Of a stretch of DNA of 39,584 nt, positions 2,663 to 7,056 are shown one piece after another. Made by a program: the position numbers and the translations under genes. The notes under the pieces were generated by a model. That model did no database searches. It was not told where the DNA came from and was given only the letters and a program-made list of their open reading frames with translations. The stretch is taken from NCBI GenBank assembly GCA_030147745.1, contig JASBUS010000090.1, positions 1 to 39,584 on the forward strand, given 5' to 3'. Position 1 is the stretch's first letter. Each line of letters begins with the position of its first letter. The stretch is from Alphaproteobacteria bacterium. GTDB taxonomy: Bacteria; Pseudomonadota; Alphaproteobacteria; Micavibrionales; Micavibrionaceae.

Positions 2663-2986
2663 ATGAGCGACGAAATCATGAAAGAAATGGATGAAGGTTT
2701 AGGCATTATCACCTTGGTGGCGAGTGACATCGATGGTGAGAAATTCTGGGCTTATGTCGATATCCTACCAAGCAAATATAATGACTTCCTTGCGGTACAA
2801 AAAGGCGATACGCCTTATAAGCTGACCGATTTTGGTGATATTTTAAAATATGGTCTCGGGAGTTACGAGCCACCTGCCGAAGTTGTTGCCGAAATGGCGG
2901 AACTTTATGGCACAGACCCTGAATTTCAAGATAAATTAAAAAATGATGTTGAACGTCAAATCGCCGCGATGCGTGCGCCGAAATAA
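2663..2986 (+). CDS. Small acidic protein of unknown function
   Basis: 107 residues, soluble and acidic, with no signal peptide. AAGG a few bases before the ATG is a plausible ribosome binding site. The first half looks like a short beta-rich domain (IITLVASDIDGEKFWAYVDIL), followed by KLTDFGDILKYG and a helical, charged tail. It follows the unknown membrane-associated gene by 13 bases, which suggests a shared transcript. No family is recognised; a cytoplasmic partner or regulator of the upstream protein is only a guess. Confidence 0.7.
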   Translation: MSDEIMKEMDEGLGIITLVASDIDGEKFWAYVDILPSKYNDFLAVQKGDTPYKLTDFGDILKYGLGSYEPPAEVVAEMAELYGTDPEFQDKLKNDVERQIAAMRAPK

Positions 2987-3002
2987 AACATTTAAAACAT
3001 TT

Positions 3003-3028
3003 GTAACCAATCCCCCTTGATAAGCGAA
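3003..3028 (+). promoter_or_regulatory. SigF-type ECF promoter of the bufferin operon
   Basis: GTAACC at 3003-3008 and CGAA at 3025-3028 are separated by exactly 16 bases. As I recall it, GTAACC-N16-CGAA is the motif described upstream of genes controlled by the ECF sigma factor SigF in Caulobacter crescentus, which include DUF2282/DUF692 (bufferin) operons. It lies about 70 bases before the ATG of the DUF2282 gene. No ECF sigma factor or anti-sigma gene is present in the window. Confidence 0.75.
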
Positions 3029-3086
3029 TTTATCGCTATATTTCCCCTATGGGAATCAGATAGGCTTCAGGCCGCAAGATATATTT

Positions 3087-3093
3087 GAGGAGA
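3087..3093 (+). promoter_or_regulatory. Ribosome binding site that sets the bufferin precursor start
   Basis: GAGGAGA ends six bases before the ATG at 3100. An in-frame TTG at 3085 overlaps this site and is therefore unlikely to be the start. Confidence 0.8.
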
Positions 3094-3099
3094 ATATTT

Positions 3100-3414
3100 A
3101 TGTCGATCACACAAAAAACAGTAAAGACACTTGTTGCAGGCGCATTCGCGGCGACTTTAACAATGGCGGCAGCCCATGCATCTAGCGCACATGACCCAGC
3201 CGCGCCTGAAGGCAAAGAAAAATGCTATGGCGTTGCCAAGGCAGGCATGAATGATTGTGGTTCATTAGACGGTGCACATGGCTGCGCCAGCGCGGCAAAG
3301 GTTGATGGCGATGTGACAGAATGGGTTTTGGTACCAAAAGGTCTCTGCCATAAACTCGTTGGCGGTAAGCTTGCAGAAGAAGCTAAGGCTGAAATGGATG
3401 CCCCAAGCGAATAA
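3100..3414 (+). CDS. bufA: Bufferin precursor, DUF2282 family (BufA1 type)
   Basis: 104 residues starting at the ATG behind GAGGAGA. A signal peptide of about 26 residues ends near AAAHA. The mature part has exactly four cysteines, at 42, 53, 62 and 83, in the DUF2282 settings KCYGVAKAG, NDCGS, HGCAS and GLCHKLVGG. Proteins of this family are ribosomally made precursors whose cysteines are converted to thiooxazole-type groups by a DUF692 (MNIO) enzyme with a DUF2063 partner; the exported product sequesters copper or other thiophilic metals. The enzyme and partner genes follow directly, overlapping end to start. The SigF-like promoter upstream suggests induction by metal or oxidative stress. 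Metal specificity cannot be read from the sequence. Confidence 0.93.
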   Translation: MSITQKTVKTLVAGAFAATLTMAAAHASSAHDPAAPEGKEKCYGVAKAGMNDCGSLDGAHGCASAAKVDGDVTEWVLVPKGLCHKLVGGKLAEEAKAEMDAPSE

Positions 3415-4261
3415 AACGGTTATGGGGCTTGGTTTGCGCCACCCCCATTATCGCCAAATAATTGAATGCCCGCCGCATGAACAAATTTCATGGGTCGAAA
3501 TTCACCCTGAAAACTATTTCGGCGGCGGCATTAATTTTAAATTCCTCGAAAAAATCCGTGAAGACTTTCCTGTAAGTTTCCATGGTGTTGGCTTATCACT
3601 CGGTAGCGCTGAGGCGGTGAGTGCGCATCATTTACAGCAGCTCAAAATATTAATCGACCAGATTGAACCATTTCAATTTTCTGACCATGCCTCATGGAGC
3701 ATGAGTGGCAATGCGCATTTAAATGACTTACTGCCGCTCGCTTATACAGCTGAAAATCTAGACAATCTCTGCCGGAATATTGACCAGGCGCAGCATGTGC
3801 TGGGGCGGCAAATCTTAATTGAAAACCCATCAACTTATCTGCGCTTTAAACAAGATGAAATGACCGAATGGGCGTTTTTAAACGAAGCTGTGGCGCGTAC
3901 AGGCTGCGCCCTCTTGCTCGACATCAATAATATTGTTGTCCAAGGCCATAACCATGGTTTTGCGCCGACGGATTATCTGGACCAAATTAATTTCGCCGCC
4001 GTGAAAGAGATACATTTAGCAGGCTACACACCGCGCGAGATTGATGGGCAGGTCCTTTATATCGATACCCATGGTGAACAGGTTCATAACGATGTGTGGC
4101 AAACGTTCACTTATGCGATGGCGCATTATAATCCCGTGCGCACATTGATTGAATGGGATAATAACATGCCCGATTTAGATATATTGCTTGCGGAATGTGC
4201 AAAGGCTGACGCCATTATCACCAAAGCGCAAGCGCAGGGGGCGGAAGACCATGCCGCTTAA
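3398..4261 (+). CDS. bufB: DUF692 multinuclear iron-dependent oxidase (bufferin maturation, BufB)
   Basis: 287 residues, a TIM-barrel MNIO enzyme that modifies cysteines of the precursor encoded just upstream. Family motifs are visible in order: VEIHPENYF (33-41), FHGVGLSLG (61-69), FSDHASWS (94-101), IENPSTY (141-147), LLLDINNIVVQGHNHGF (172-188), EIHLAGY (204-210), DTHGEQVHNDVW (223-234) and LIEWDNNMP (250-258). The His, Glu and Asp residues in these blocks are the expected iron ligands. The start at 3398 overlaps the precursor gene by 17 bases and has AAGG upstream; an ATG at 3422 is possible but has a weaker site and would leave only a few residues before GLGLR. The following gene overlaps by 11 bases, so translation of the operon is probably coupled. 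Confidence 0.94.
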   Translation: MPQANKTVMGLGLRHPHYRQIIECPPHEQISWVEIHPENYFGGGINFKFLEKIREDFPVSFHGVGLSLGSAEAVSAHHLQQLKILIDQIEPFQFSDHASWSMSGNAHLNDLLPLAYTAENLDNLCRNIDQAQHVLGRQILIENPSTYLRFKQDEMTEWAFLNEAVARTGCALLLDINNIVVQGHNHGFAPTDYLDQINFAAVKEIHLAGYTPREIDGQVLYIDTHGEQVHNDVWQTFTYAMAHYNPVRTLIEWDNNMPDLDILLAECAKADAIITKAQAQGAEDHAA

Positions 4262-5015
4262 GTTTGACTATCAACAGCAGATGAAAGACGCCTTGCTTTC
4301 TAACCATGACGATGTGGCGTTGATGGATGAAATATGTGCGGATGGATTAAGCGCAGCGCAGCGAATGGGTATATACCGTCATAATGTCGTTGGTGGTTTG
4401 GTTGAGGTGCTTTTGGCGCGTTACCCGACGCTTGTCCCGCTCGCAGGCGATGACTTCGCGCGCGGCATGGCGCAGCGTTATATATTGGCGCATCCACCGC
4501 AAAGCGCTAATTTAAATGACTATGCCGCAGATTATGCAGCTTTTTTAGCAGCGCAAGATGAAGCGGCGGAATTCCCATTTCTCAGTGGAATAGCGGCGTT
4601 AGAGAATTTGGAACATTTGGCGTATTACGCCGCTTTTGTGCCCTGCTTAACCCTAGAGAATGTCGATGGATTTTTACCGCGCATCGAAGCGCAAGATTTA
4701 ACCGTGCGCCTTAACCCTGCCGTGGGTTTGCTTCAAAGTGCATATCCATTACGCGACTTGCGTGCGTATGCAGAGGATAATAACTGCCCCGCGCCTGATA
4801 TGAGCGGCGGCACGCCGCATTATTTCATGGTAAGTCGCCGTGATTTTATGGTGGAAAGCCATGAAATCAGCGCCGCTGAATTTGCTTTTTTAAATGCAGT
4901 TGCTGAGGGCGCGGATATTCATCGCGCGCTTGAACAAACGCTGCAGAATGCGCCTGATTTTGATTTCACAGCCTCATGGCAAAAATGGGTTGAACACCAT
5001 GTCTTCGCGTTTTAA
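4251..5015 (+). CDS. bufC: DUF2063 bufferin-maturation partner (BufC)
   Basis: 254 residues. The N-terminal domain carries the DUF2063 signature GIYRHNVVGGLVEVL, RYPTLVPLAGDDFARGMAQRY and HPPQSANLNDYA. Family members are the recognition and scaffold partners of DUF692 enzymes, binding the precursor peptide and presenting it to the oxidase. The start at 4251 is inside the end of the DUF692 gene and has GGGGGCGGAAG upstream; an extended in-frame start at 4188 would add an unusual Arg/Lys-rich leader and is rejected. The C-terminal part is typical of HvfC-like proteins. The usual fourth gene of such operons, a DoxX-type membrane protein, is absent: lspA follows. Confidence 0.92.
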   Translation: MPLKFDYQQQMKDALLSNHDDVALMDEICADGLSAAQRMGIYRHNVVGGLVEVLLARYPTLVPLAGDDFARGMAQRYILAHPPQSANLNDYAADYAAFLAAQDEAAEFPFLSGIAALENLEHLAYYAAFVPCLTLENVDGFLPRIEAQDLTVRLNPAVGLLQSAYPLRDLRAYAEDNNCPAPDMSGGTPHYFMVSRRDFMVESHEISAAEFAFLNAVAEGADIHRALEQTLQNAPDFDFTASWQKWVEHHVFAF

Positions 5016-6396: not shown

Positions 6397-7056
6397 ATGT
6401 TTCATATGCTGAATATGCGTATAAAAATATTTTTGATTGCCGCGTTGCTTGTGACTTTTATGCTCACAGCGCAGGATGCCTTTGCGCAAAATAGCCGCAT
6501 TTATTTGGCGGGTTATATGGGCTTGAACACCATGCCTGATAACGACTTCAAAGATAATACATCTGGTCAGTCGGGCACATATCAAACCAATAATACAATT
6601 AACTTCGCGGGTGCGATTGGTCTGCGCTATAGCCGCCAAATTCGTTTTGAAGGTGAAGTGAGTTACCGCCAGAGCGATTTTTCTAAATTGCGCACCAATA
6701 GCGGTGAATATACTGCGGGCGGCGAAATTTCTAATACGGCGTTCATGCTGAATGGTTTCTATGACTTTGACCAATTTAAGTGGAAAGCTAAGCCTTATTT
6801 GACAGCAGGTCTTGGTGTGATGCGCTTTAAATCATCTGTTGAGCCAACCGCGCCGCTATCAAGCAGCGACGATACCGCCTATGCCCTTGGCTGGCAGCTC
6901 GGTGGTGGTTTGAAATATCGCCTAAACCCTGGTCTGGCGGTCACAAGTGGTTATCGCTATATGAGTGCTAGCGATTTCGGTATTGGCACATATGATGCAG
7001 ACTACAGCGCCCATGAATTCATGGTCGGCGTTGAATATGACCTACACTGGAAATAA
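6397..7056 (+). CDS. Outer-membrane beta-barrel protein
   Basis: 219 residues. A signal peptide ends near QDAFA, after which the protein is a run of alternating strands and turns: RIYLAGYMGL, RYSRQIRFEGEVSYRQ, AFMLNGFYDFD, KPYLTAGLGVMRF, YALGWQLGGGLKYRL, AVTSGYRYM and EFMVGVEYDLHWK. That pattern fits an eight-stranded OmpA/OmpW-like barrel of the general opacity or outer-membrane beta-barrel families. It lacks a terminal Phe, ending in Trp-Lys. Three in-frame ATGs (6397, 6406, 6415) have no clear ribosome binding site; the one at 6415 gives the most usual signal peptide. A good promoter lies upstream. The specific role is unknown. Confidence 0.85.
   Translation: MFHMLNMRIKIFLIAALLVTFMLTAQDAFAQNSRIYLAGYMGLNTMPDNDFKDNTSGQSGTYQTNNTINFAGAIGLRYSRQIRFEGEVSYRQSDFSKLRTNSGEYTAGGEISNTAFMLNGFYDFDQFKWKAKPYLTAGLGVMRFKSSVEPTAPLSSSDDTAYALGWQLGGGLKYRLNPGLAVTSGYRYMSASDFGIGTYDADYSAHEFMVGVEYDLHWK

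Follow-up and report, generated by a model that had tools for sequence, protein, structure and literature searches.

Among the closest described counterparts of the locus analysed here is the SigF-NrsF system of Caulobacter crescentus (CC2907-2905, CC3254-3257, CC2748), which has the same promoter motif, bufferin-type operons and an NrsF with two cysteines (PMC3511200). Kohler 2012 (PMC3511200) gives GTAACC-N16-CGAA as the SigF motif and lists two DUF2282-DUF692-DUF2063 operons in the regulon, in agreement with the initial annotation of our sequence, which had named this motif and bufferin operons among its targets. The transcription start lies at -61 for CC3254 and at -7 for CC2907, and NrsF residues C131 and C181 are important for control (PMC3511200). 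The two systems also differ. In Caulobacter a bufferin operon adjoins sigF-nrsF, whereas here sigF is on another contig; Caulobacter sigF has a similar promoter, without strong autoregulation under metal stress, whereas our sigF lacks the site; and the regulon as listed for Caulobacter is small and includes a YedY/MsrP gene but not MsrA, MsrB, ScsB or ScsC.

In Bradyrhizobium japonicum, the ECF16 factor EcfF is paired with OsrA, a DUF1109 anti-sigma factor with two cysteines like the NrsF found here; C129 and C179 of OsrA are important for control (PMC3420878). The EcfF motif, GTAAC(g,a)-N14-15-(c,t)CG(t,a), is a related one, transcription of ecfF starts 6 bp past the -10 box, and the targets include Msr genes and a pair interpreted as a DsbD-core protein plus a thioredoxin (PMC3420878). 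Unlike the present case, the published table holds no target annotated as bufferin, the ecfF-osrA promoter is itself a target and the system answers ROS (PMC3420878). Sinorhizobium meliloti RpoE7, also ECF16, has a motif-matched promoter at the orthologues of CC3254-3257; it appears autoregulated, with a divergent neighbour operon and seven targets, and its reporter fusions did not respond to H2O2, Cd or chromate, no inducer being found in that study (PMC6180224). In Haemophilus influenzae (RpoE2) and Neisseria (SigE) one ECF factor serves MsrAB and a DUF2063/UPF0276/DoxX operon, but the anti-sigma factor is small and cytoplasmic (67 aa in Haemophilus), unlike NrsF (PMC7907618). Brucella BcrS is reported with an MsrQP-type operon and a response to HOCl.

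The Scs system of Caulobacter, Proteus and Salmonella shares with our genome the ScsC-like proteins with ScsC_N and DSBA domains and the DsbD-like, ScsB-like proteins. It has been linked to copper, and the accessible text of that account does not mention SigF control (PMC8900818); here scsB and scsC lie apart from each other, and their names come from domain matches only. Bufferins are recently described copper-chelating modified peptides; according to the literature found, their regulation is understood in just a few bacteria, and a bufferin survey mentions sigma and NrsF genes for Buf1 clusters but none for Buf2. In the accessible literature we found no case of scsB/scsC and bufferin genes sharing a single ECF16 promoter, which is not proof of absence. 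The parts of the regulon described below have published precedents; the way they are combined, and a sigF that is unlinked and lacks the site, make it a variant.

The bufABC operon and its upstream site

The window, by which we mean the whole stretch of 39,584 nucleotides analysed, carries a three-gene operon (Table 1) consisting of a four-Cys DUF2282 precursor, an MNIO BufB and a DUF2063 partner, the composition of a Bufferin 1 operon. BufA has an N-terminal segment resembling a signal peptide by eye, and its four cysteine columns contain C in 77, 77, 77 and 76 of 77 copies. BufB scored 353.1 bits against NF050167 MNIO_BufB (cut-off 310), and bufC overlaps bufB by 11 bp. By analogy with characterised bufferins, the product of bufABC would be a putative copper-chelating, Cys-modified bufferin 1.

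Table 1. Coordinates of the promoter elements and genes in the window, and loci of the cusA-linked bufferin copies
Feature	Position	Strand	Basis
-35 element GTAACC, SigF/ECF16-type promoter	3003..3008	+	sequence; conserved before bufA in the order and in both genus-mates
-10 element CGAA, next base T	3025..3028	+	sequence; 16-bp spacing conserved
Predicted transcription start	3034..3038	+	predicted from 6 bp past the -10 (B. japonicum ecfF) and about 10 (initial annotation)
Putative ribosome-binding site GAGGAGA	3087..3093	+	sequence; 6 nt before ATG 3100
bufA, DUF2282 bufferin precursor, 104 aa	3100..3414	+	PF10048, 79.3 bits
bufB, MNIO (DUF692) bufferin maturase	3422..4261	+	PF05114, 328.7 bits
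bufC, DUF2063 partner protein	4251..5015	+	PF09836, 73 bits (cut-off 27.2)
cusA-linked motif-free bufA copies	L010, L013, L014, L015, L030, L036, L071, L072, L083, L095, L115		

The two half-sites are exactly 16 bases apart, as the initial annotation had read them, and 71 bp separate CGAA from the bufA start codon. With the predicted start, the leader would be about 62-66 nt long. Taken without comparative evidence, the single exact site at 3003-3028 proves nothing. With one mismatch allowed, the window contained 3 matches against 1.56 expected, and 22 of 100 shuffled sequences reached 3. The motif was not enriched in the genome either (2.39 Mb in 101 contigs): the exact pattern occurred 8 times and its reversed control 17 times, while the GTAACY form occurred 16 times against 26 for the control.

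Of 142 genomes belonging to the same order, 58 have DUF2282, at 78 places, one of which fell below the family cut-off and was dropped; 75 of the remaining 77 copies, including the window's own bufA, had a full 500 bp of DNA before the DUF2282 domain. The exact motif was found before 24 of these 75 copies and GTAAC[CT]-N16-CGAA (the strict form) before 35. The strict form was absent from the antisense strand and from the 500 bp downstream (0/75), and Markov resampling gave a mean of 0.03 matches and a maximum of 1. When spacers of 10-22 were tried, 16 was found 35 times, 15 five times and the others never. The distance from the site to the DUF2282 domain was 138-207 bp in all 35 strict matches. 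The relaxed form, which leaves the sixth base free and accepts a spacer of 15 or 16, was found at 46 of 77 copies. In all three genomes of the genus the bufA site is present, with its half-sites kept and its spacer diverged.

These data bear on whether the site is a chance 10-base match in a 2.4-Mb genome, with the operon read from another promoter. The missing enrichment in the window and the genome would fit such a match, but 35 of 75 upstream regions share the motif with both controls at zero, and a sigma-70 scan of 2850-3100 found no promoter-like site on the + strand. Despite the lack of enrichment we place the site above chance because it is conserved before bufA in the order, and a coincidence is hardly credible. 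On this sequence evidence, 3003-3028 is very likely to be a genuine promoter recognised by a stress sigma factor of the SigF type.

Alternatively, bufABC might mainly be read through from upstream genes, the site adding little. The preceding ORF, which has the same orientation, stops at 2986, and no terminator-like site was found in the 113-bp gap between it and bufA. That gap, however, holds the conserved site, which in relatives keeps its place before the DUF2282 domain in 35 of 35 strict matches, and we regard read-through as the main route as improbable. Two ORFs (348 and 107 aa) lie upstream of the operon at 1603-2986 and had no Pfam match at E 0.001.

Of the nearest named BufB loci, seven from Azospirillum (44-48% identity), none carried a site within the 1200 bp preceding BufB, and among all 16 named BufB loci the site was found in one, a Gemmatimonadetes MAG. 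On that contig (L338, VGVM01000052.1) BufB is 43% identical to the window's, and GTAACC-N16-CGAA starts 365 bp before it; transfer or mis-binning is possible.

A SigF-NrsF pair and other genes with the site

The initial annotation had placed the sigma gene elsewhere in the genome. A search for a SigF-like ECF factor and its anti-sigma partner found both, on another contig (G000:C14), so the genome does not lack a SigF-like factor. The sigma factor has Sigma70 region 2 (PF04542, 41.3 bits) and region 4 (PF08281, 44.5 bits) and no other domain. Directly downstream is the only NrsF match of the genome (PF06532, DUF1109; 42.4 bits, cut-off 26.8). An alignment of 31 NrsF sequences, to which Caulobacter NrsF does not belong, has two cysteine columns, with C in 30/31 and 29/31, and our NrsF has both. 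We assign the sigma factor to the ECF16/SigF type from its domains, its NrsF neighbour and the NrsF cysteines rather than from comparison with the Caulobacter SigF sequence, and the assignment is a probable one.

The sigF gene itself has no site within 300 bp upstream, even with up to 2 mismatches, and GTAACY-N15-17-CGAA was found within 400 bp of none of 30 sigF genes; candidates with one mismatch occur upstream of sigF in G104, G002, G068 and G120. Since our sigF lacks the site, the switch is probably post-translational. DUF2282 occurs in 49 of 85 NrsF+ genomes and in 9 of 57 NrsF- genomes. In one relative, msrB lies about 200 bp downstream of nrsF, in the same orientation (G026:C23:78495-79694).

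A scan for further sites kept the bufferin operon in the candidate regulon, as the initial annotation had supposed, and revealed a wider set that also takes in thiol-disulfide and methionine-sulfoxide repair genes. The strict form occurs at 7 places in one genus-mate (G097) and 12 in the other (G098). Sites close before gene starts form a coherent set, whereas sites in coding DNA look like chance. Six of the 16 sites in our genome were assigned to the regulon; C65:2483 and C93:61091 were left out. Gene names such as scsB and scsC rest on domain matches, with the DsbD- and CusB-type NCBIfam models below cut-off.

An scsC-like gene (ScsC_N and DSBA domains) and an scsB/dsbD-like gene each have the strict site in our genome and in G098, and GTAACG in G097; in our genome a redoxin gene lies behind the scsB/dsbD-like gene. 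The site precedes an AhpC/TSA peroxiredoxin gene in our genome and in G098, and none was found there in G097. For msrA it is present in all three genomes, ending in ours 4-13 bp before the likely start codons. For msrB, whose product has an N-terminal signal-like segment, our genome has the site, G098 a 17-bp spacer and G097 one mismatch. Of the nine GTAACR sites found in our genome we retained one, in front of a thioredoxin-NHL gene (L404); it reads GTAACG in our genome and GTAACT in G098. The shared site before periplasmic thiol and methionine-repair genes suggests one candidate switch for copper or oxidation damage.

Other candidates were set aside. The site 125 bp before a CBS-domain gene (L001) was treated as chance, as was 6641-6666, which lies inside the ORF 6397-7056. 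dsbB was dropped as a target, its site in G097 and G098 lying inside the preceding ORF. Separately, most members of genera g3 and g30 (e.g. G012, G069) are NrsF+ and have no DUF2282, several of them with scsB or scsC sites; the regulon seems to persist there without bufferin.

Association of the site with NrsF across the order

We compared the presence of the site with that of NrsF, using for each gene the best 30 loci (for the peroxiredoxin, the 22 of 30 that were closer orthologues), our own genus included, and the strict site within 700 bp upstream. The site was found at 7/20 NrsF+ and 0/10 NrsF- loci for scsC, 9/24 and 1/6 for scsB, and 7/22 and 1/8 for msrB. The peroxiredoxin (3/21 NrsF+, 1/1 NrsF-) is a weak case. 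Loci with short flanks have imprecise starts; L172 and L174 were rescanned for scsB, and the other genes were left as found.

For scsB the scan was extended with the relaxed form GTAACN-N15/16-CGAA to 106 of the 133 genomes with an ScsB match, namely the 30 already given and 76 picked by hand, mainly those with the N-terminal part listed, while their upstream DNA was still unseen. The relaxed site was present in 51 of 72 NrsF+ genomes and 4 of 34 NrsF- genomes (Fisher 7e-9). Among 719 permuted half-site patterns the mean was 0.28 genomes, and the two highest (18 and 13) were the real motif shifted; the antisense control gave 0 genomes. When each genus was counted once per NrsF state, the association held (21 with and 9 without the site vs 4 and 18, p=0.0003), as it did for the strict form counted over genomes (23/72 vs 1/34, p=0.0004). 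In mixed genera, the NrsF- members lacked the scsB site in g6, g30 and g38, with exceptions in g31 and g32, and g37 had no scsB site in either NrsF state. The relaxed site was missing at scsB in 21 of the 72 NrsF+ genomes.

At bufA the relaxed motif did not track NrsF (40/49 NrsF+ vs 6/9 NrsF- genomes), which leaves room for a different explanation: the promoter is real but is read by a different ECF sigma factor, or by SigF acting without NrsF, and the SigF-NrsF pair is incidental. Two nearly complete genomes, G031 and G092 (100% and 99%), have the motif at both bufA and scsB, and the sigma search found nothing in them; either their assemblies lack sigF-nrsF or a different sigma factor recognises the site. 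G023, with the motif at bufA, had no SigF match, and G045 and G079 had weak ECF matches only; in G057 a contig end truncates the SigF match, and this could account for the lack of NrsF there. Our own genome has two further ECF-like matches, though at 56 and 41 bits vs 271. Against such an explanation stand the scsB association in the 106 genomes and within g6, g30 and g38, and the fact that the motif is the one published for SigF/ECF16 (PMC3511200, PMC3420878). We judge it very improbable that the promoter belongs to another factor, and keep to SigF-NrsF.

Proposed switch, its inducer and the Cus-linked bufferins

Our preferred reading, which we consider highly likely from the sequences compared, is that a SigF/ECF16 promoter would drive bufABC and that SigF, held by NrsF and freed by a copper or thiol insult, would join metal buffering with thiol and methionine repair. 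SigF would be kept inactive by the membrane anti-sigma factor NrsF until its two conserved cysteines are modified by periplasmic copper or by some other insult that acts on thiols. This change would release SigF, and the dispersed, similar promoters would be transcribed. The bufferin operon would then provide periplasmic metal buffering; the scsB/dsbD-like gene with its redoxin and the scsC-like gene would supply electrons and repair disulfides, the peroxiredoxin would act on thiols, and msrA and msrB would repair methionine sulfoxide. What the present data show is the DNA side of this reading: the motif, its conservation, the sigma/anti-sigma pair, the motif shared with other genes and the NrsF association at scsB. 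We infer binding, start site, inducer and cysteine switch, with induction and cysteine sensing carried over by analogy from published relatives.

The same promoter and sigma factor might instead answer an oxidative signal (ROS or HOCl), as EcfF or Brucella BcrS do, with the bufferin acting as a redox peptide. This concerns the inducer and is compatible with the promoter claim. The initial annotation had presumed a metal or oxidative stress regulon. Msr, peroxiredoxin and Scs-like genes have the same promoter here, published ECF16 regulons answer H2O2 or HOCl, and Caulobacter SigF is needed for H2O2 survival in stationary phase (PMC3511200). However, the Caulobacter regulon is induced by Cr, Cd and Cu (PMC3511200; Cu: PMC8224329), which fits the metal part of the presumption, and was not induced by ROS generators (PMC3511200). 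The Caulobacter sigF::Tn5 mutant is also copper-sensitive (PMC3511200, PMC8224329). Also against an oxidative signal, a second class of bufA lies directly behind cusA copper-efflux genes. Our preferred reading, in turn, has against it that Caulobacter strains mutated in sigF or DUF692 showed no raised sensitivity to Cr or Cd (PMC3511200) and that the RpoE7 fusions of S. meliloti gave no response (PMC6180224). An oxidative inducer is possible, but we hold it to be the less probable case; copper or another thiol-active insult remains our preferred signal.

The second class was seen among the motif-free copies: 11 of 31 immediately follow a CusA-like gene in the same orientation, vs 0 of 46 motif-bearing copies (p=1.3e-5). 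Among copies with at least 1000 bp upstream the counts were 11/27 and 0/45. Nine genomes have both kinds of bufA. The cusA-adjoining class suggests a tie between bufferins and copper and a second control route for the Cus-linked copies.

Across the order, the data tie bufferins to one sigma/anti-sigma switch that apparently also serves Scs-like thiol reduction and methionine repair. The analysis raises the claims that copper and thiol stress share one sensor, the NrsF cysteines, that the bufferin cysteines depend on the Scs-like branch, and that there are two bufferin classes, one SigF-controlled and one Cus-linked. As a tentative and rather doubtful extension, scsB/dsbD may be the steadiest SigF target in the order and ECF16 may sense periplasmic thiol damage; the bufferins would then be metal-binding clients, their cysteines usable through electrons from ScsB/ScsC, and the second class would have left the regulon by way of cus operons.

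The cus operon was considered as a SigF target and is not claimed as one: a site no more than 1500 bp away was found at only 4 of 30 cusB loci (our own included). One of these belongs to an NrsF- genome; the other three, all NrsF+, have nearly identical spacers with an inverted repeat by eye, and the cus site may be another operator travelling with a mobile cluster. In our genome GTAACT-N16-CGAA stands before a four-Cys 137-aa ORF, a cusB-like gene whose product has a heavy-metal binding domain, cusA and a copper P-type ATPase gene (L384:540-7654, contig C46). That site contains an inverted repeat by eye, and nearly the same site is found in G021 and G140.
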